A stretch of DNA of 32,076 nt from Planctomycetota bacterium. Its GTDB lineage: Bacteria > Planctomycetota > UBA11346. The notes below the pieces were generated by a model that was not told the origin of the DNA, ran no database searches, and was given only the letters and a program-made list of their open reading frames with translations. The stretch covers positions 1 to 32,076 of the forward strand of contig JACCZE010000388.1 in the NCBI GenBank assembly GCA_013696105.1, read 5' to 3'. The position numbers and the translations under genes are program-made. Shown in pieces: positions 5,146 through 28,373 of this stretch. How positions within the stretch are numbered: the stretch's first letter is position 1; every line of letters starts with the position of its first letter.

Positions 5146-7056
5146 TCAACGACGCGGGCGACGCACAGCGATCAGGCCAAGCGTCAGCAGGCACGCTGCG
5201 AGGCCGGATCCGGATCCGCAATCGTCGCCAGCAGGCGAGATGGGATTCGGCTCGACGCTCTTGGACAGCACCGGAAACGCCAGGCTCGCACCAGCCAGGG
5301 AGGCACGCCCGCCGATGTCCACGGCCGCGCCCGCCGGCAGGTCGACGGTCACCAGCGTGCTGCCAGCGGGGGCCGTGACGAGCATCTGGTAGGCGGGGCC
5401 GCTGCCCACCAGGGCCCCGGCGACCGCGCCGCCGCCGAGGACGACGTCGGAGGCGGTGAAGCCGGTGACGCTCTCGGTGAAGAGGAAGCGCAGCAGGATC
5501 GAGCCTCCGGGCGCGATCGACGTCGCGGAGGCGAGGATGGTCGGGACTGGTGCCTTGCGATCGCTCTTCACCGTGCGCGAGAAGGCGAGGTTGCCGTTGA
5601 GGGCGGCGTCGCGGGCCGCGTCCGCGGGGATCGAGAGCACCACGTCGCCGTCGTCCGTGGGAGTGACAGGGACGGTATAGGTGGTGCCGCTGCCGGTGAC
5701 CGCCCCGACGGTGCCGTTGGTCGCGGTGAGCGCGCCCGCAGGGAAGCCGGTGACAGTCTCATTGAAGGTGATGAGGAAGAGGATCGGGTCGGCGCCCGTT
5801 ATCGCGCCAGCCGCGGGCGTGGCGGTGATGGTGGGCTTGGTGGTGTCGTAGGTCACGGTCGCGGTGGCCGGGGTGCTGGGATTGCTCGATGAGTCGATCG
5901 CCGCGCCATTCGCGACATCGACCGTCACCCCACCCTGGGCGCTGGCGGTCACAGGCAGGGTGTACGTCGTGCCCGAACCGCTCAGCGCTCCCGCCGAGCC
6001 GTTGGTGAGTGTGATGTCCGATGCGGTGAATCCGGTCACGGCGCGATCGAAGGCGAAGGTGAAGACGATCGCGGCGGTGGATTGGAAGGTACCGGATGGC
6101 GTGATCGACAGCACCGGCTGCGTCGTGCTGTAGGTCACCGTGGCCGATGATCCGGCGCTCGCGTTACCGGCAGCGTCGTGCACTACCGCGGCAGGAACGG
6201 AAACGCCGACCGCCCCTGTGGTGACGGGGGCCACTTGCAGGGTGTAGCTCGCACCGGAACCAGCGAACGCGCCCTTGGTGCCGTTGGTGACGGTCACGTT
6301 CGCAGCGGTGAAGTCGACGACGGCTTCATTGAAGGTGAAGGTGAAAGCGATCGGCGTCACGCCGGTGGTCGTCCCGTTGGGCGTGATGACGAGCGTGGGC
6401 ACGGCGGAATCGAAGGTGACGCTCGCTGTGGGCGCGGCGGTGTTCGGCGCTCCCAGGCCATCGAAAGCGGCGCCGGCAGCGACGTTGACGGTCACGGCGC
6501 CTTGCGCGCTGGGCGTGATCTCGAGGGTGTAGATGTCAGCGCCCGGCGATACGCTCGCGAACGCTGCGGCCTTGGTGCCATTGCCGACCGTCACGTCATT
6601 GACGGTGAAGCCGCTGACCGTCTCGCTGAAGGTGAAGGTGAACACCATCGGCGAGACGTTGCTCGACGTCCCGGTGGGGGTGATGGCGAGGGCGGGCGGC
6701 AGGTTGTAGGTCACCGAACCGCTGCCAGCGAGGTTGTCCTCGGCGGTGCTGTTCTGCGCGGCGCCGGCAGGGATGGTGAGCGTCACGGCTCCCTGGCTGC
6801 TTGGGATCACCGTGATGGAGTAGGTGGTTCCGCTTCCCGAGAAGGTGTCGAGGCTGCCGTTGCTCGCCACCGCGTCGGCGAGCACGAAGCCGGTGACCGC
6901 CTGCGAGAAGGTGACGGTGAACGAGATCGGATTCGAGGTCGTCGAACCGCTGTTCGGCGTCACCGTCACCGTCGGTTGGGCTGCCCAAGCCGGTGCGCAG
7001 AGGAGCGCCAGCAACCAGGCGAGGATCGGGAACGATGGGCGGCGGTGGGAGCGCAT
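5146..7056 (-). CDS. Secreted protein with six Ig-like repeats and a CTERM-like sorting tail
   Basis: A 636-aa protein. Residues 1-22 are a signal peptide ending in AWA. Six repeats of about 95 aa follow, each with a PxxxxTP start, an FTFTF-x-xxVTGF core, a SGSGTTYT-like turn and an IPAGAA-like close, as in bacterial Ig-like domains found in adhesins and surface proteins (Big_12-like). The C-terminus reads DDCGSGSG, about 12 hydrophobic residues, then RRPRR: the layout of a C-terminal sorting signal (motif, membrane helix, basic end) of the GlyGly-CTERM / Synerg-CTERM kind. The ATG at 7056 is chosen because the signal peptide starts there and GAGGT lies about 10 bases upstream. It follows the beta-barrel gene by 43 bp and is probably co-transcribed. 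Likely surface-exposed. Confidence 0.85.
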   Translation of the reverse strand: MRSHRRPSFPILAWLLALLCAPAWAAQPTVTVTPNSGSTTSNPISFTVTFSQAVTGFVLADAVASNGSLDTFSGSGTTYSITVIPSSQGAVTLTIPAGAAQNSTAEDNLAGSGSVTYNLPPALAITPTGTSSNVSPMVFTFTFSETVSGFTVNDVTVGNGTKAAAFASVSPGADIYTLEITPSAQGAVTVNVAAGAAFDGLGAPNTAAPTASVTFDSAVPTLVITPNGTTTGVTPIAFTFTFNEAVVDFTAANVTVTNGTKGAFAGSGASYTLQVAPVTTGAVGVSVPAAVVHDAAGNASAGSSATVTYSTTQPVLSITPSGTFQSTAAIVFTFAFDRAVTGFTASDITLTNGSAGALSGSGTTYTLPVTASAQGGVTVDVANGAAIDSSSNPSTPATATVTYDTTKPTITATPAAGAITGADPILFLITFNETVTGFPAGALTATNGTVGAVTGSGTTYTVPVTPTDDGDVVLSIPADAARDAALNGNLAFSRTVKSDRKAPVPTILASATSIAPGGSILLRFLFTESVTGFTASDVVLGGGAVAGALVGSGPAYQMLVTAPAGSTLVTVDLPAGAAVDIGGRASLAGASLAFPVLSKSVEPNPISPAGDDCGSGSGLAACLLTLGLIAVRRPRR

Positions 7057-15299: not shown

Positions 15300-18074
15300 A
15301 TGCGTCTGCTCATCCTGCTGTGCCTGACCGTCGCTACGACCGCTGCAGATCCCCTCATGATCTGCGATTTCGAAGGCGAAGATGCGAAGGCGTTCGAGGC
15401 GCCTCCCGGGGTGGTCGTGGTCGACGAACACGCGAAGCGCGGCAAGCGCTCCCTGCGCATCGTTACCGACCCGGTGGGATATCCTGGCCTCACCTTCCAG
15501 GGCGGGCGCGAACTGTCGCGCTTCCGTGAACGCCCGATCTTCGCGATGGACATATTCAATCCGCAGGATCATGCCGTCGGCTTCTCGGTTCGGGCCGATG
15601 ACGCCAGCAGCAAGGACTATGGCAGCCGCTACAACGACGACGGCTATTCAGCCCGCCCCGGGTGGTCGACCGTGCGCATCAACCTCACCGGGTTGCTGTG
15701 CTCCAACTCGCGCAATTTCTCGGAGCAGCGTGCGCTCGACATGAGCATGCTGCGCATCTTCATGGTCTTCATGGGCCCGACTCCTGACGGCAAGAGCACG
15801 TCGCTGTACTTCGATGACGCCCGACTCGAGGATACGGGACTGCCCGCGTGCGCCGGACTGCGGGCGTTCGACTTCGGACCCGTGGGATCGGGAGTCTTCT
15901 CCGGATTCACCGGCGTGACCGAAGCGGACATCTACGCGTCAGGCAAGGGATACGGCTGGATCGGTCCCGAGAGCGGTCAACGCCCGGCAAATCCCGACGA
16001 TCTCGGTGGCGACTTCGGTAGCGGGAAATCCTTCGTGGTCGATCTGGCCGAAGGCGCCGGCACCTACGTGGTCGAGCTCTGCATCGACGCGTTCGGTGCT
16101 TGGGCGACCCCACAGAGCTTCAAGCACCGCACCGTCACGCTCAATGGCGACACGGTGCTCGATGAGACCTGGGACGGAGTCGCCTTCCTCGAAAAGCGCT
16201 ACCTGCGCTTCGAGCGGGATGAGGACGAGCCGGGCATGGACCTGTGGGAGCGGCGCGTGAAGCCGGCGACGCCGGTGCGACGCTTTGAGGCGGCGGTCAA
16301 AGCCGACGGCAAGCTCGCTGTTTCCGTGCATGGTGACGGCCCATTCGGCTCAGCGATGTGCTACATGGTCGTCTATCCGAAGGCGAAGGCCGTCGAGGGG
16401 GCCGCGTTCATGAAGGCCCTCGACGCGCGACGCAAAGACCTCTTCAGCAACGAGATCTCGCTCGCCCTGCCCAAAACCGATCACCCGGCTCCGAAAGCCA
16501 CCGCCGAGGAGCAGGCGCGGGGTTTCATCGCCTTCGCGCGTTCGAGCGACATCGACATCGCGTGCACCGCCTCGCCTAGCGATAGCGAGCGTGGAGCGGC
16601 TCTCGCGCTTGCAGGTTGTGCTGGCGAACGCATCGCCGGCCAGGTCGGTCTGCTGCCGCTAAAAGCCGTCGACGCAGTGACCGCGACCGTGTCGGATCTC
16701 GCGTCTGCTGACAGCTCGATCTCATCCTCGGCGATCGACATACGCGCGGTGCGCAATCTGGCCAAGCGCGGAGGAATCGGTCGCGAAGCCACGCTCACCC
16801 CCTTGATCCTCGAGCCGCGGCAGCGGCTGCCGCTCAAGCCAGGGTTCACGCGCGCGTTCTGGCTCACGGTGCGGATCCCCACCGGCACCAAGCCCGGCGA
16901 CTACCGCGGCTCGGTGACCCTCGCCGGGGGAGGCACACCGCTGACGGTGCCGATCTCGCTCACCGTGCATCCGTTCGTGCTCGATGCTGCCGACGACGCG
17001 ACATTCAGCTGCACCGGCACCACCGCCGGGCACACGCGCGGACTGTACCCGGACCTGGATGCAATCTGGTGGACGACCGCCGACGCCATGTTGAAAGACC
17101 AGGCCGATCACGGGTTGAACGCGGTGACCGGCGGACCCGGCATGCGCCTGACCGCGCTCTCGGGCGGCATTGCGACCATCGATTGGGCCGATGCCGATCG
17201 CTGGATGGCCCTCGCCATCAAGCACGGGCTCAACAAGCGCGGCGACAGTTACCAGGGCTTTGACCTCGACCTCGGCATCGGTCACGATCGCAGCAAGGAC
17301 GCGCTCGGCGAGAACGATCGCCGCGCGAAGCAGAAATGGGGGGTGGGGTTCGCCGAGCTGGTCACCATCGCATACGGCACCGTCGAAGCGCACGCCAAGG
17401 AGCGCGGGTGGCCGCCGCGATCGTACTATCTGATCGATGAACCACGCCCTGAATTCGGAAACATCGAGCCGTGCCGCCAGCTCATCGCTTTGTACGCCGC
17501 CGCTGCTCCTGGCACGACGTTCAGTGGTTTCTATTCGCCCGGAGAAGGACGTGATCCGTACTTCTCGATGCTCGGTGTCTCGATCGCCCATCACACGCCT
17601 GCATCCTTGAAGCTGTGCGTCGATGCAGGCAAGCAGGCCTGGGACTACAGCGCCGGGGGTTCTCGCTACGACATTGGCCGCTGGTTCTTCGCGCTGCACC
17701 GACAAGGCATGTCCGGATTCCTGCGCAATGGCTGGACGTACGTGAACTCGGATCCCTATTACGACTTCTCGGACACCGAGGGGTCGTGGGCGCAGGTGTA
17801 CCCCAGCGCGAGCGCCGCCGGATTTGTCGCCACCGTGATGTGGGAACGCACCGCCACTGGCATCGCCGACTACCGCTACCTCAAGACGCTCGCCGGCCGC
17901 ATCTCGGCGGCGAAGACGGGCAAACGGGACACCGCCGCCGCGGAAGCGTTCCTCGCCAAGACCCTCGCTCCGATCACCGTCGAAGACAGCGGCACCGCGG
18001 TGCTCTCCGCTGCAGATACCGCGGCCTTCCGCACCGAGCTGGTGAAGCACATCGTGGCGCTGGCTGGGAAGTAG
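15300..18074 (+). CDS. Secreted GH123-like glycoside hydrolase (DUF4091)
   Basis: A 924-aa protein with a short signal peptide (cleaved near TTAA, residue 16). N-terminal beta-rich regions (about 20-190 and 195-370) look like carbohydrate-binding or jelly-roll domains. The C-terminal half matches DUF4091/GH123: the motif IDEP with Asp713-Glu714 fits the catalytic Asp-Glu pair of GH123, which uses substrate-assisted hydrolysis of N-acetylgalactosaminides. The end has MWERTATGIADYRYL, typical of DUF4091. An ideal AAGGAGGT (15289-15296) precedes the ATG at 15300. It is probably periplasmic or secreted and acts on amino-sugar polysaccharides such as mucin or sulfated glycans; the substrate is inferred. 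It starts 152 bp from the divergent kinase gene. Confidence 0.82.
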   Translation: MRLLILLCLTVATTAADPLMICDFEGEDAKAFEAPPGVVVVDEHAKRGKRSLRIVTDPVGYPGLTFQGGRELSRFRERPIFAMDIFNPQDHAVGFSVRADDASSKDYGSRYNDDGYSARPGWSTVRINLTGLLCSNSRNFSEQRALDMSMLRIFMVFMGPTPDGKSTSLYFDDARLEDTGLPACAGLRAFDFGPVGSGVFSGFTGVTEADIYASGKGYGWIGPESGQRPANPDDLGGDFGSGKSFVVDLAEGAGTYVVELCIDAFGAWATPQSFKHRTVTLNGDTVLDETWDGVAFLEKRYLRFERDEDEPGMDLWERRVKPATPVRRFEAAVKADGKLAVSVHGDGPFGSAMCYMVVYPKAKAVEGAAFMKALDARRKDLFSNEISLALPKTDHPAPKATAEEQARGFIAFARSSDIDIACTASPSDSERGAALALAGCAGERIAGQVGLLPLKAVDAVTATVSDLASADSSISSSAIDIRAVRNLAKRGGIGREATLTPLILEPRQRLPLKPGFTRAFWLTVRIPTGTKPGDYRGSVTLAGGGTPLTVPISLTVHPFVLDAADDATFSCTGTTAGHTRGLYPDLDAIWWTTADAMLKDQADHGLNAVTGGPGMRLTALSGGIATIDWADADRWMALAIKHGLNKRGDSYQGFDLDLGIGHDRSKDALGENDRRAKQKWGVGFAELVTIAYGTVEAHAKERGWPPRSYYLIDEPRPEFGNIEPCRQLIALYAAAAPGTTFSGFYSPGEGRDPYFSMLGVSIAHHTPASLKLCVDAGKQAWDYSAGGSRYDIGRWFFALHRQGMSGFLRNGWTYVNSDPYYDFSDTEGSWAQVYPSASAAGFVATVMWERTATGIADYRYLKTLAGRISAAKTGKRDTAAAEAFLAKTLAPITVEDSGTAVLSAADTAAFRTELVKHIVALAGK

Positions 18075-18077
18075 GAG

Positions 18078-18123
18078 GCGATGGGCGATGGGCGATGGGC
18101 GGGCCGCTAGCTGATAGCCGATA
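18078..18123. repeat. Heptanucleotide repeat element between the GH123-like gene and gnd
   Basis: GGCGATG is repeated three times (18078-18098). After a short spacer come AGCTGAT and AGCCGAT (18109-18122), also 7-mers. The element starts 4 bp after the stop codon of the glycosidase. Unlike the elements at 19745 and 26852, the two halves are not good complements, so this may be two fused or decayed arms. Confidence 0.65.
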
Positions 18124-18195
18124 GCAGGGTGCCGAAGAAGCACCCGCGGGGGGTCCGGGAGGGTGTTCCGTCCCCCGGTAAAAAAGTCGCCCTCG

Positions 18196-18228
18196 CGAAA
18201 ACCCGGCACGATAGGCGCCGGGTTTTCG
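18196..18228 (+). terminator. Hairpin terminator before gnd
   Basis: CGAAAACCCGGC (18196-18207) pairs perfectly with GCCGGGTTTTCG (18217-18228), a 12-bp stem with a 9-base loop and a T-run in the 3' arm. It separates the glycosidase gene, which ends 122 bp earlier, from gnd, so gnd should have its own promoter in the 85 bp that follow. Confidence 0.75.
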
Positions 18229-18313
18229 TGATTTCCGTCGCTCCGACCCGTGCGTTGCCGCTGGACCCGCCGGTGGTCCTCCCCAGGCTTGGCCGCTCCA
18301 CCCGGAAGGACAC

Positions 18314-19735
18314 ATGAACGCGACTGCAGACGCCGGCGTCATCGGCATGGCCGTGATGGGCCGCAACCTGGCCAAGAACATCGAATCGCGCGGCAACACC
18401 GTCGCGCTCTATAACCGCACCTGGTCGGTGACCGAAGAGGTCATGAAGTGGGAGCACGCCAAGGGCGCGCGCTTCATCCCGTGCAAGGAGCTGGCGGATT
18501 TCGTCAAGGCGATCAAGCGGCCGCGGCGGATCATCATCATGGTCCAGGCCGGCAAGGGCACCGATGCGGTGATCGAAGGCATCGCCCCCCTGCTCGAACA
18601 GGACGACATCCTGGTCGACGGCGGCAACGCCCATTGGGCGGACACCGACCGGCGCAACGCCTTCGCCGCGGGCAAGAACTTCCGCTTCGTCGGCATGGGC
18701 GTCTCGGGCGGTGAAGAAGGCGCGCGCATCGGCCCCTCGATCATGCCGGGCGGCGATCGTGCGGCGGTCGACCTGCTGATGCCGATCCTCAAACAGATCT
18801 CTGCCAAGGCCGGTCCCGGGAATGACGAGCCCTGCGTGACCTGGTGCGGCGCGGGCTCGGCCGGGCACTTCGTCAAGATGGTGCACAACGGCATCGAGTA
18901 CGGCGACATGCAGATGATCGCCGAATGCTACGACCTCATGCACCGCGGCCTGGGCCTGGGCCACGCCGACTGTGCGAAGACCTTCAAGGAGTGGAATCGC
19001 GGCGAGCTCGGCAGCTTCCTGATCGAGCTCACCGGCCAGATCGCCGACAAGGCCGACCCCGAGAAGTCCGGCGGATTCCTGCTCGACGCGATCCGCGACG
19101 CAGCCGGCCAGAAAGGCACGGGCAAGTGGACGACCATGGCCGCCCTCGAAGCCGGCGTCGCCATCCCGACCATCACCGCCGCGGTCGACGCGCGCATCGT
19201 CTCGAGCGTGAAGACCGAGCGCGAGGCCGCGGAGAGGATTCTCGCTCTGCCGCGGTCCAAGGTCTCGGGCATCGCCACCGCGGATCTCGCGCAGGCGTTG
19301 TACGGCGCGAAGATCTCGGCCTACGCCCAGGGCATGACCATGATCAAGGCCTGCGCGGCGCAGCGGAACTACCAGACCGACATCGGTTCGATCCCGGCGA
19401 TCTGGCGCGGCGGCTGCATCATCCGCGCGGTCTTCCTCGACCGCATCACCGCCGCGTTCAAGAAGCAGCCGACCCTCGCCAGCCTGCTGATCGCCGACGA
19501 GTTCCGCGCCGACATCACCCGCACCGTCCCGGCCCTGCGCAAGGTCGTCGGCGCCGCGATCGCGGCCGGCATCCCGGTGCCCGCGCTGTCCGCCAGCCTC
19601 GCCTACATCGAGAGCTACGCGACCGCGCGCCTCCCTGCGTACGTGACCCAGGCCCAGCGCGACGCCTTCGGCAGCCACACCTACGAGCGCATGGACAAGC
19701 TCGGGACGTTCGTGCACACGGAATGGCTGGCGTGA
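18314..19735 (+). CDS. gnd: 6-phosphogluconate dehydrogenase (decarboxylating)
   Basis: An oxidative pentose-phosphate enzyme: 6-phosphogluconate to ribulose-5-phosphate plus CO2, making NADPH. The 473-aa length is typical. The N-terminal Rossmann motif is GVIGMAVMGRNLAKN followed by YNRT, the usual NADP-type pattern. Substrate-site motifs are GMGVSGGEEGARIGPSIMPGG and KMVHNGIEYGDMQ with the catalytic Lys, then GTGKWT. GGAAGGA precedes the ATG. The next gene, a likely NAD(P)H-dependent FMN reductase, begins 111 bp later across a palindromic heptad element, so the two may or may not be co-transcribed. Confidence 0.97.
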   Translation: MNATADAGVIGMAVMGRNLAKNIESRGNTVALYNRTWSVTEEVMKWEHAKGARFIPCKELADFVKAIKRPRRIIIMVQAGKGTDAVIEGIAPLLEQDDILVDGGNAHWADTDRRNAFAAGKNFRFVGMGVSGGEEGARIGPSIMPGGDRAAVDLLMPILKQISAKAGPGNDEPCVTWCGAGSAGHFVKMVHNGIEYGDMQMIAECYDLMHRGLGLGHADCAKTFKEWNRGELGSFLIELTGQIADKADPEKSGGFLLDAIRDAAGQKGTGKWTTMAALEAGVAIPTITAAVDARIVSSVKTEREAAERILALPRSKVSGIATADLAQALYGAKISAYAQGMTMIKACAAQRNYQTDIGSIPAIWRGGCIIRAVFLDRITAAFKKQPTLASLLIADEFRADITRTVPALRKVVGAAIAAGIPVPALSASLAYIESYATARLPAYVTQAQRDAFGSHTYERMDKLGTFVHTEWLA

Positions 19736-19744
19736 TAATCGCAC

Positions 19745-19832
19745 GTTCTCAGTTCTCAGTTCTCCGTTCTCCGTCGACAGCCAACGGCGCGCGATGCTCC
19801 GGTTGTCCGACAGAGAACGGAGAACCGAGAAC
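19745..19832. repeat. Palindromic heptanucleotide repeat element between gnd and the FMN reductase
   Basis: Left arm: GTTCTCA twice then GTTCTCC twice (19745-19772). Core of 39 bp from GTCGACAGCC to TTGTCCGAC (19773-19811). Right arm: AGAGAAC, GGAGAAC, CGAGAAC (19812-19832), the reverse complement of the left units. The whole can fold as one long hairpin. It ends just before the TAGGA ribosome site of the next gene, so it forms most of that gene's leader. The core shares its ends (GTCGAC at the left, TCCGAC at the right) with the element inside mnmG. Confidence 0.85.
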
Positions 19833-19846
19833 GTAGGACGTTTCCC

Positions 19847-20398
19847 ATGCGCCTCGTCATCGTCCCGGGAACCAACCGCGCCGGCAGCCTGACCGCGAAG
19901 CTCGCGAAGCTGGTGGTGGCGGACTACGTCGCGCTCGGATGCGAGGTCGACGTGCTCGAGATGAATCTCGGACCCGAGTTCCTCGAGCCGACCGCGTACA
20001 AGCAACCCAAGCCGGCGGTGACCGCGCTGGTGAACCGCTTCCTGGCCGGGGACGCCGCGGTGTTCCTGGTGCCGGAATACAACGGCAGCTATCCCGGCAT
20101 CCTCAAGCTGTTCGTGGACATGCTGCCCGAACGCGAGGGCTTCAGCGGCCGGCCATGCGCCTTTATCGGCTTGAGCGCGGGACAGTTCTCCAGCCTGAGG
20201 TCCGTGGAGCACTTCCAGGGCGTGGCCGGCTACCGCAACGCCTACATCTTCCCCACGCGCCTGTTCATCGGCGACAGCTTCAAGCGCTTCGCCGCGGACG
20301 GCAGCTTGATCGACCCCGCCTATGCCGAGCGCCTGAAGGCACAGGCGGCGGGCTTCGTCGACTTCGTGCGCGCGCTGAAACGCCCGGCTCGGCCATGA
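19847..20398 (+). CDS. NAD(P)H-dependent FMN reductase family protein
   Basis: A 183-aa flavodoxin-like oxidoreductase. The N-terminal MRLVIVPGTNRAGSLTAKL is the phosphate-binding loop of this family (usual form GSxRxxS), and PEYNGSYPGILKLFVDML is its hallmark flavin-side motif. It is likely to reduce FMN, quinones or azo compounds with NAD(P)H in the cytoplasm. TAGGA at 19834-19838 is 8 bases before the ATG and directly abuts the palindromic repeat element. gnd upstream makes NADPH, a plausible but unproven link. It ends 23 bp before the convergent last gene of the pseudopilus operon. Confidence 0.9.
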   Translation: MRLVIVPGTNRAGSLTAKLAKLVVADYVALGCEVDVLEMNLGPEFLEPTAYKQPKPAVTALVNRFLAGDAAVFLVPEYNGSYPGILKLFVDMLPEREGFSGRPCAFIGLSAGQFSSLRSVEHFQGVAGYRNAYIFPTRLFIGDSFKRFAADGSLIDPAYAERLKAQAAGFVDFVRALKRPARP

Positions 20399-20421
20399 GG
20401 GCCATCACAGCCGCCGAGCGG

Positions 20422-21219
20422 CTACTCCATGTCGTTCATGGCGCACAGGGCATCGACCAGCCCAGCCATCGGTTCGACCGCCGCCGATAGCAGCAGGGCT
20501 CCGGCCACGACATAGACGATCCCCGAGAGGATGCGCACCATGTGGCGTCGGGACCGCACGGCCGCGGAAGCGTGATAATCGGCGAGCTGGCGACAGTGGT
20601 GCTCGGCCTCGGGGTGACGGAGCACCGTCCCGAGTCCCGCCGCGTCGGATCCCAGCACGGGAATCAGCTCGGACTCCGGCAGCCGCCAGCGGGCGACCAG
20701 CGCGGCACGTTCGAATCGCTGGGATTGCGACATATGGTAGCCGAGACTGGCGAGCGACGGCAGCCAGCGCGCGGCATAGGGAGACTGCGACAGCCACACC
20801 ACCGCTGCGCCGACGATGAGCACGCCGATCCCCACGATCAGCCAGGGCGCGGCGAATCCGTGACCCGAAACGCGGAGGATCACCACCACCGCCACGACGA
20901 CGCCGATCATGGTCAGGAGCGGATGGGCGATGGCATCGATCCAGGCGAGACGCGCGGCGCGGTCCAGGCGCAGACGTTCGGCGGTGAGCAATGCGCTGCG
21001 CTCCAGGGAGGGACGGGGGCCCCGCAGCGCAGCCCGGAGCTCATCGGGGAGATGGCCGGACAAAGCGCTCGCGACGTCCTTGCCCGCATCAAGCTCGTCG
21101 GCGATCATCTTACCCAGGGCGCCGCATTGGGCGCGCAGATCGGGACCCAGCGGCCGCCGCTCCAGAGCCGAGGCGGCGATGGTGCGGAGGATGCATTCGA
21201 TGTCCGCAGCGTGGCTCAT
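20422..21219 (-). CDS. GspF-like membrane protein, third copy
   Basis: A 265-aa protein, last of the nine-gene operon. The N-terminal 85 residues, with CILRTIAASALERRPLG and a later GKDVASALSGHLPDE stretch, follow the pattern of a T2SSF domain. Two membrane helices lie at about 98-145 and one near the C-terminus (about 232-250). GspF/PilC normally carries two T2SSF domains and about 400 aa; this has one, so it looks like half a platform protein. Its ATG at 21219 overlaps the stop of the gene before by ATGA. Its assignment rests on pattern and context more than on strong motifs. Confidence 0.6.
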   Translation of the reverse strand: MSHAADIECILRTIAASALERRPLGPDLRAQCGALGKMIADELDAGKDVASALSGHLPDELRAALRGPRPSLERSALLTAERLRLDRAARLAWIDAIAHPLLTMIGVVVAVVVILRVSGHGFAAPWLIVGIGVLIVGAAVVWLSQSPYAARWLPSLASLGYHMSQSQRFERAALVARWRLPESELIPVLGSDAAGLGTVLRHPEAEHHCRQLADYHASAAVRSRRHMVRILSGIVYVVAGALLLSAAVEPMAGLVDALCAMNDME

Positions 21220-26465: not shown

Positions 26466-28373
26466 ATGTCATCGACCTCCTTCGACGTGATCGTGATCGG
26501 CGCCGGCCACGCCGGGATCGAGGCCGCAGCCGCCTCGGCGCGCCTCGGCTGCCGCACCGCGATCGTCAGCGGCAACCTCGACACCATCGGCAAGATGTCG
26601 TGCAATCCGTCGATCGGCGGCGTCGCCAAGGGTCAGCTCGCACGCGAGGTCGACGCGCTCGGTGGCCTCATGGGCCTGGCGACCGACGCCACTGGCATCC
26701 AGTTCCGCACCCTCGGCCTGTCCAAGGGCCCCGCGCTGTGGAGCCCACGCGCGCAATGCGACAAGGCCGCCTACGCCGCCTGGATGAAAGAGCGCATCGA
26801 GTCCACGCCGAACGTGTTCCCGATCCAGGGGGAGGCGGTGGGAATCGTCACGTGCTCCGTCCTCCGTCCTCCGTCCTCCGTCGACGGCCGACAGCCGGCG
26901 CTGTTGCCTTCCGACGGAGCACGGAGCACGGAGCACGGAGCACGTCCCGCCGTCTCCGGCGTCTCGCTGCGCGATGGTCGCACCCTATCTGCTCCGCGCG
27001 TCGTGCTCACCACCGGGACGTTCCTCCAGGGCCTGATGCATCAGGGCGAGACCCGCACCGGCGGCGGGCGCATGGGCGATCAGCCGGCGCTGGGGATGTC
27101 CGACAGCCTGCGCGCGCTCGGCCTACGTTTGATCCGCCACAAGACCGGCACGCCCTGCCGCATCCACGCCGACTCCGTGCGCTGGGACCTGTGCGAGGAG
27201 CAGCCGGGGGACGAGCCGCCCAAGCCGTTCAGCTTCCTCACGCCCGCGATCACCCAGAGCCAGCTGAGCTGCTGGATCTGCCACACCACCAAGGAGTCGC
27301 ACGCGCCGATCCTCGCGAACCTCCATCGCGCGCCGATGTACAACGGACAGATCGCCTCGGTCGGCCCGCGTTACTGCCCCTCGATCGAGGACAAGGTCGT
27401 GCGCTTCAAGGACCGCGACAGCCACCACCTGTTCCTCGAGCCCGAAGGCCGCACGACCAAGGAGATCTACGTCAACGGCCTGAGCACCAGCCTGCCGATC
27501 GACGTGCAGGACGCGGTGCTGGCGCTGATCCCCGCACTCGCGCACGCGCACGTGCTGCGTTATGGCTACGCGGTCGAGTACGACGTGGTCGCGCCCGAGC
27601 AGATGACCCACGCGCTCGAAGCGCGCGCCATCCCCGGCCTTTTCCTCGCCGGCCAGATCAACGGCACCTCGGGTTACGAGGAGGCCGCCGCGCAGGGCAT
27701 CATGGCGGGCGCCAACGCCGCGCTCACCCTCGGCGCCGGGACCACCGGCGGCACGCCGCTGGTGCTCTCGCGCGCGGACGCCTACATCGGCGTGCTGATC
27801 GACGACCTGGTGACGCGTTGCCCCGAAGAGCCGTACCGCATGTTCACCAGCCGCGCCGAGCACCGCCTACACCTGCGCTCGGACAATGCGGATCGCCGCC
27901 TGACTCCGCTCGCGGCGCGGGCTGGACTCGTATCCGACGCGCGCGGTGCGTCGGTCGACGCCAAGGATGGCGCCATCCGCGCGCTCGTCGCCACCGTCCC
28001 CGATGAGCTCGCGCGCCGGATCGCCGGCGAGGGCCTGGCGTTCGTCGATGCGGGCGTGGTGATCCCCGCACTCGCGGGCGCGGATCCGCTGATCGCCGAG
28101 GAGGCGTGGATCGAGCTGCGCTACGCGACCTACCTCGAACGGCAGCAGACGCGCATCGATCAGCTCACGCGCTTCCGCGACCTCGCATTGCCGCACGATC
28201 TCGACCTCGCGTCGATCGCCTGCATCAGCCACGAAGGACGGCTGAAGATGGCCGCGGCCAAGCCGCGCACGCTGGGCGAGGCGAACTCGCTGCCCGGCGT
28301 CAGCCAGGCCGATGTCGAGACGCTGTACGCGGTGCTGCAGGGCCGGCACAAGCGAGCCGCTGCGGCCGGTTGA
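26466..28373 (+). CDS. mnmG: tRNA uridine-5-carboxymethylaminomethyl modification enzyme, large subunit
   Basis: MnmG (GidA) works with MnmE to make cmnm5U at the wobble position of several tRNAs, using FAD, NADH and methylene-THF. The 635-aa length is close to the E. coli protein. The FAD loop IGAGHAGIEAA is near residue 12. Other family stretches are SCNPSIGGVAKGQL, GTFLQGLMHQGE, RYCPSIEDKV, FLEPEGRTTKEIY and GYEEAAAQG. A palindromic heptad repeat (26852-26944) is translated in frame as about residues 129-160, in a turn before the VVLTTGTF strand, and disrupts no stop or frame. No ribosome site is visible; a CATACT box at 26451-26456, ten bases from the ATG, hints at leaderless expression. 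Confidence 0.95.
   Translation: MSSTSFDVIVIGAGHAGIEAAAASARLGCRTAIVSGNLDTIGKMSCNPSIGGVAKGQLAREVDALGGLMGLATDATGIQFRTLGLSKGPALWSPRAQCDKAAYAAWMKERIESTPNVFPIQGEAVGIVTCSVLRPPSSVDGRQPALLPSDGARSTEHGARPAVSGVSLRDGRTLSAPRVVLTTGTFLQGLMHQGETRTGGGRMGDQPALGMSDSLRALGLRLIRHKTGTPCRIHADSVRWDLCEEQPGDEPPKPFSFLTPAITQSQLSCWICHTTKESHAPILANLHRAPMYNGQIASVGPRYCPSIEDKVVRFKDRDSHHLFLEPEGRTTKEIYVNGLSTSLPIDVQDAVLALIPALAHAHVLRYGYAVEYDVVAPEQMTHALEARAIPGLFLAGQINGTSGYEEAAAQGIMAGANAALTLGAGTTGGTPLVLSRADAYIGVLIDDLVTRCPEEPYRMFTSRAEHRLHLRSDNADRRLTPLAARAGLVSDARGASVDAKDGAIRALVATVPDELARRIAGEGLAFVDAGVVIPALAGADPLIAEEAWIELRYATYLERQQTRIDQLTRFRDLALPHDLDLASIACISHEGRLKMAAAKPRTLGEANSLPGVSQADVETLYAVLQGRHKRAAAAG
26852..26944. repeat. Palindromic heptanucleotide repeat element inside mnmG
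   Basis: Left arm: GTGCTCC (26852-26858) then GTCCTCC three times (26859-26879). Core of 36 bp (26880-26915) begins GTCGACGGCC and ends TTCCGAC, with an inner hairpin ACAGC/GCTGT (26891-26895 and 26900-26904). Right arm: GGAGCAC four times (26916-26943). The right units are exact complements of the first left unit and one mismatch from the others. At 93 bp it keeps the mnmG frame open and adds about 31 residues. It shares design and core ends with the element at 19745. Confidence 0.9.

Follow-up and report, generated by a model that had tools for sequence, protein, structure and literature searches.

Inverted heptanucleotide repeats placed downstream of stop codons form a dispersed family whose repeat unit is replaced between related species

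Results

An inverted heptad element lies between gnd and an FMN reductase-family gene

In the window (the whole stretch of 32,076 nucleotides analysed here), positions 19745-19839 hold an inverted heptad element, in the gap between gnd and a gene of the NADPH-dependent FMN reductase family (Table 1). An earlier note on this DNA had described four left and three right heptads around a 39-bp core at 19745-19832; the sequence confirms this and adds to the three right heptads (19812-19832) a degenerate fourth, GTAGGAC, reaching 19839. The left arm begins 9 nt downstream of the gnd stop codon (19733-19735), and the ATG of the FMN reductase-family gene (19847) lies 7 nt past the end of the element. 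The predicted fold has an energy of -60.8 kcal/mol (z -8.3), a value equalled by none of 200 shuffled sequences. A tRNA was the sole match in an Rfam search of the window, the element itself matching no family.

Table 1 Coordinates of the two heptad elements and of the genes around them.
Feature	Position	Strand	Sequence or evidence
gnd, 6-phosphogluconate dehydrogenase	18314..19735	+	TIGR00873 5.9e-176; PF00393 4.7e-111
Left arm, FMN-site element	19745..19772	+	GTTCTCA GTTCTCA GTTCTCC GTTCTCC
Core, FMN-site element	19773..19811	.	39 bp, GTCGACAGCC...GTTGTCCGAC (also written GTCGACAGCC...GGTTGTCCGAC)
Right arm, FMN-site element	19812..19839	-	AGAGAAC GGAGAAC CGAGAAC + degenerate GTAGGAC
AGGA in the last right heptad, candidate ribosome site for the FMN reductase gene	19835..19838	+	sequence
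NADPH-dependent FMN reductase-family gene	19847..20398	+	PF03358 4.7e-24
mnmG	26466..28373	+	TIGR00136 2.4e-208
Left arm, mnmG element	26852..26879	+	GTGCTCC GTCCTCC GTCCTCC GTCCTCC
Core, mnmG element	26880..26915	.	GTCGACGGCCGACAGCC...TTGCCTTCCGAC
Right arm, mnmG element	26916..26943	-	GGAGCAC x4

The second element of the window, which had been placed beside mnmG, actually lies inside the mnmG reading frame. It is in frame and, by comparison with relatives, supplies about 29 extra residues where element-free relatives have a short turn. Its heptads had been called different from those at the FMN site, but both elements are built from the same degenerate heptad, GTBCTCC, in which the third base may be C, G or T. 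At the same site the congener G001 carries an element whose core is homologous, and G016, from another genus, carries one of GTCCGAT, while several other relatives have the short turn only; these element-free sites are too diverged to give the exact insertion borders that a check for a MITE target-site duplication uses. Inserts are apparently tolerated at this turn of MnmG: in G011 the same place (window 26600-27000; L078) holds a different, GC-rich repetitive insert of about 17 residues. A position within a gene is otherwise exceptional, being found for 1 of 43 paired elements in the source genome.

The two elements belong to a family of roughly 100 members with a fixed period

The FMN-site and mnmG elements are members of one dispersed family, estimated at 98-127 elements, roughly 100, in the 4.3-Mb draft source genome; the estimate derives from the share of heptad hits falling in about 480 kb of that genome, sampled in stretches chosen mainly around heptad hits. 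Most of the sequence analysed was selected for holding elements, and all genomes are drafts. Genome-wide, three consecutive GTNCTCM heptads occurred 243 times, against 0 for the reversed control, and with the seventh base left free the number of triples rose to 402 (control 0). These counts exclude chance as the source of the arrays.

In the usual layout, a variable core bounded by GTC and GAC separates four GTBCTCC heptads from four complementary ones, the left GTBCTCC array preceding the right GGAGVAC array in the paired elements (convergent inverted pairs). Across the 43 paired elements of the source genome the unit reads G T [C/G/T] C T C [mostly C]. In 358 units, positions 1, 2, 4 and 5 were at least 98% constant and position 6 93% constant, and the third base was C in 131, G in 118, T in 109 and A in none. 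Avoidance of GTAC was considered as the cause of the missing A and rejected, GTAC being only mildly depleted (0.84). In G032, a genome from another taxonomic family, the unit is GTACTCG. Four units per arm was the mode (55 of 86 arms in the 43 paired elements), and this mode is common to three genomes with three dialects. The flanks are purine-rich ahead of the left arm and pyrimidine-rich past the right arm.

Most cores start with GTC and end with GAC, and further GTC..GAC cores thus exist in the genome, whose absence would have told against the family proposed in the earlier note. A GACAGC / GCTGTC motif near the arms was present in 28 of 47 elements of the source genome; it also stands beside GTNCTG, GTCCGAC and GGTTGGT arms in the congener G001, and was found in 1 of 41 elements of G016. 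Core interiors were mostly unrelated between elements. A single core type nevertheless recurred at six places on three contigs, one unlinked pair of copies was 91% alike across 120 nt, and one site held three elements in tandem.

The period is fixed at seven. Period-7 palindromic arrays of any unit numbered 48 in the source genome, 28 in G001, 42 in G016 and 8 at the Saprospiraceae loci described below, versus 0-5 arrays for each of the other periods (5, 6 and 8-12) across these four sets and 0-2 each in the 480 kb of the source genome; because heptads guided the choice of the surveyed loci, the density carries no weight, whereas the difference between periods does, though it is inflated for the main units. 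The exclusive period is one of the facts in favour of a purely mutational product, in which arrays would arise by 7-bp slippage and arms would be copied by template switching in hairpins, with no function at all. Heptads are over-represented in many bacteria, with polymerase slippage proposed as the cause (PMC4692102), and here neighbouring units of an arm agree at position 3 above random expectation (0.50 vs 0.34). However, one unit dominates about 100 separate loci, which local slippage would not yield, and at the variable positions the arms of one element resemble each other no more than they resemble arms from other elements. We therefore consider a mutational origin without function improbable.

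Heptad elements follow stop codons

With gene borders taken from our own codon-usage script, elements were found to start about 4-15 nt past a stop codon. In the source genome and two relatives combined, 63 of 74 elements began or ended no more than 20 nt from a stop codon; uniform placement in the same gaps would give 35.2, and the observed number was reached in 0 of 20,000 simulations. Codirectional gaps with at least 80 nt of slack gave 20 of 30 elements near the stop vs 3.0 expected, a test that is weak for the congener G001 by itself (2 of 6). In convergent gaps a stop was often near both ends of the element. Palindromes of other units in G001 and G016 were likewise mostly next to stop codons, and at heptad-free gene ends inverted repeats just past the stop exceeded those of shuffled sequence.

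This rule bears on the earlier note's proposal that the element forms the leader of the FMN reductase gene and, as a long hairpin right before the ribosome site, may limit its translation. The ATG is indeed close, and a possible ribosome site, AGGA, does lie in the outermost right heptad and is base-paired in the predicted fold. This AGGA, however, is not retained in the congener, whose copy folds at z -1.5, and the position of the family as a whole tracks stops, not starts. A dedicated FMN reductase leader is accordingly very hard to credit. Because the family's position follows stop codons, the element is assigned to the 3' end of gnd: it is thus read as a putative 3'-end hairpin of gnd that also stands near the FMN reductase start, and would be a leader by proximity only.

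We also considered a canonical intrinsic terminator and rejected it: the stem has no T tract downstream of the arms, where the flank starts GTT and is then C-rich, and no terminator-like site was detected within 18000-21000, around the FMN-site element.

The repeat unit is replaced between species at retained sites

Heptad units differed sharply between related genomes. Triples of GTNCTCN numbered 402 in the source genome, 3 in the congener G001 and 0 in G016, and those of GTNCTGN 1, 91 and 0, respectively. GTCCGAY triples occurred in all three (51, 57 and 165) and in G022, which like G016 represents another genus (61). GTCCGAC is accordingly a minor unit in the source genome and in G001 (51 and 57), GGTTGGT is a further minor unit in the source genome or its congener, and G001 and G016 contain many additional heptad units. 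Most other relatives were without GTNCTCN, GTNCTGN and GTCCGAY.

The sites themselves were largely retained. A heptad element was present in G001 at 9 of 12 compared orthologous sites, and at 5 of 7 among those reached purely by homology; these sets are small and partly biased, some G001 contigs having been chosen for their heptads. At the FMN site, the G001 element has recognisable core ends and altered heptads. Two further sites have GTCCGAC in G001 vs GTNCTC in the source genome, and at one of them the source-genome array retains a single GTCCGAC. What is kept is therefore the period of 7, the number of about four units per arm, the inverted layout and the stop-codon position, and what is replaced between species is the unit. 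The earlier note's notion of a family with a changing arm unit and a constant architecture holds both for the minor units GTCCGAC and GGTTGGT and for the other main units seen at orthologous sites.

One G001 locus (contig C210, 2440-4144) has a left array only, followed by about 1.7 kb with an apparent extra gene; the matching site of the source genome carries two heptad elements. In a scan of a genome collection, matches outside the source genome were found only in two Saprospiraceae MAGs. At several loci (L219-L224) these MAGs have inverted GTTCTCT heptads around a similar core, and they also contain other inverted units. Among viral contigs, no two-arm match was found.

Pairing between arms is strong but not the conserved property

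Folding was strong over the elements as a whole (median z -5.6 in the source genome, -5.0 in G001 and -8.6 in G016), because both arms use one unit. The G001 copy at the FMN site, in contrast, is little above shuffled sequence. At position 3 the arm-to-arm match in the source genome was 0.40 vs 0.36 in permuted pairs; position 6 showed a slight excess (6 of 500 permutations), and in G001 positions 3, 6 and 7 gave no clear arm-to-arm excess. Compensatory pairing was thus rejected: save for the weak signal at position 6, the two arms show no covariation at the variable positions, and what is conserved is therefore something other than exact pairing. Together with the weak fold of the G001 copy, this lack of covariation makes a selected translation-limiting hairpin at the FMN site unlikely. 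The conserved trait is the unit within a genome, as would be expected equally if a recognised word were under constraint and if the unit spread by copying.

Discussion

A dispersed family with a fixed period, unit number and position, retained at orthologous sites while its unit is replaced between species, is directly observed here. As an explanation we tentatively favour, at a probability of roughly 45%, a family of 3'-end hairpins spread by copying and renewed by slippage, the gene-end role and the spread being what we infer. Each element would act in RNA as a gene-end hairpin, from either direction, and would either slow or terminate transcription or hold off 3' exonucleases. Whole elements would be copied, probably through arm-to-arm recombination, and so spread the unit, which 7-bp slippage would renew and lengthen; a new unit could then take over old sites, giving each species its own "dialect". 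Copying of elements is suggested by the recurring core type, the 91% alike unlinked pair and the tandem triplicate. Against the gene-end part of this explanation stand the lack of a T tract, the lack of covariation between arms, the weak fold of the FMN-site copy in G001 and the in-frame copy in mnmG. Some elements, moreover, stop just short of the next codirectional start, a place at which termination would be awkward.

Possible, but less probable, is that the elements are selfish or neutral mobile palindromes of the MITE, REP or Rickettsia palindromic element type, which insert or survive mainly after stops and have no job. Core-sharing copies at unlinked places, the in-frame mnmG insertion, at a place occupied by a short turn in most other relatives, and the presence of elements in few relatives are all consistent with mobility. 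Rickettsia palindromic elements are mostly inserted in frame in genes; the mnmG copy resembles them as an in-frame palindrome, unlike the family as a whole with its single genic case in 43. The elements also share with REP sequences, which are associated with RAYT transposases, the character of dispersed intergenic palindromes. However, most compared orthologous sites are retained with diverged cores, which implies that most copies are old and stationary, and tolerance alone leaves the sharp 4-15 nt spacing in long gaps unexplained. At least four Y1/RAYT-like transposase genes exist in the source genome (L070-L073, on contigs C286, C83, C437 and C480), two of them cut by contig ends. A RAYT/Y1 transposase was rejected as mobiliser, and counts against mobile palindromes, since no heptad arrays lie beside the four genes in the roughly 1-1.5 kb of flank seen.

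A distinct repeat, about 142 bp long and REP-like in having GTAG motifs along with several hairpins, occurs in the source genome (L062 3414-3556, contig C201) and on many contigs of G001, where it has at least 25 strong matches. It fills an intergenic site at which the congener has a GGTTGGT heptad element.

The heptad could alternatively be a word recognised at gene ends by a DNA- or RNA-binding factor whose specificity shifts between species. The near-constancy of positions 1, 2, 4, 5 and 6, the exclusion of A from position 3, the independence of the variable positions from the opposite arm and the genome-wide dialects would all suit such a factor. Neisseriaceae provide the best analogy for a species-specific word, as their DNA uptake sequence has species dialects and also forms inverted pairs, which are able to fold into stem-loops and are associated with terminators (PMC3630211). 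Uptake sequences, though, are single dispersed words, unlike the tandem heptads, and single GTCCTCC heptads outside arrays were not enriched (70 observed vs 73 expected), on which ground the dispersed uptake-sequence model was rejected. Several unrelated units coexist within one genome, and no candidate factor was found. A recognised word is therefore unlikely in our judgement, and it would be bolder still to suppose that gene ends are marked by a species-specific 7-bp word with a co-evolving reader, the word being rewritten genome-wide while its sites persist.

Returning to the preferred family of 3'-end hairpins, other heptad systems offer partial parallels. Cyanobacterial STRR are tandem 7-bp units and mostly intergenic. 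The likeness to them drawn in the earlier note is a loose one: the Anabaena GGGGA(C/T)T heptads share the tandem, mostly intergenic arrangement, but rarely form inverted pairs (PMC4692102). The TAACTGA heptads of Beggiatoaceae are likewise many-copy intergenic 7-bp units, but they are direct repeats, with one inverted case, and stand just ahead of start codons (PMC4679880), whereas the present heptads are inverted and follow stop codons. The nearest known system, related in kind, is that of the inverted GGGAATC heptads of Xanthomonas (Rehm et al. 2015, PMC4692102), which have a four-unit mode, many convergent inverted pairs and a strong post-stop bias, and of which 83% sit in matching gene contexts in two species, though with changes in length. 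Both systems combine 7-bp units having fixed and free positions with four-unit arms, inverted pairs and a bias to stop codons. Unit replacement at orthologous sites, several units per genome, a shared core-end motif and the in-frame mnmG copy go beyond what is described for Xanthomonas. A literature search found no report of heptanucleotide repeats in Planctomycetes.

The Xanthomonas unit can form G-quadruplexes, to which the authors link the four-unit mode while leaving function open (PMC4692102). GTBCTCC / GGAGVAC shows the same mode although it nowhere has three G in succession; as the G runs that a quadruplex usually needs are missing, the quadruplex explanation of the four-unit rule is weakened, and quadruplexes probably do not account for four units in general. 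Heptad repeats are widespread among bacteria, but no function has been accepted for them. The present case separates the traits that are kept (period, unit number, layout and place) from the one that is free (the unit), and demonstrates unit replacement at orthologous sites between close species. It thereby raises the question of what holds one heptad word uniform across a genome, on which the family is a natural experiment.

Elsewhere in the window, the minus strand encodes at 5146-6969 a protein that contains tandem repeats, each about 95 residues long, and has no NCBIfam match. Its C-terminal tail is hydrophobic, ends in arginines and may be a sorting signal of a surface protein.
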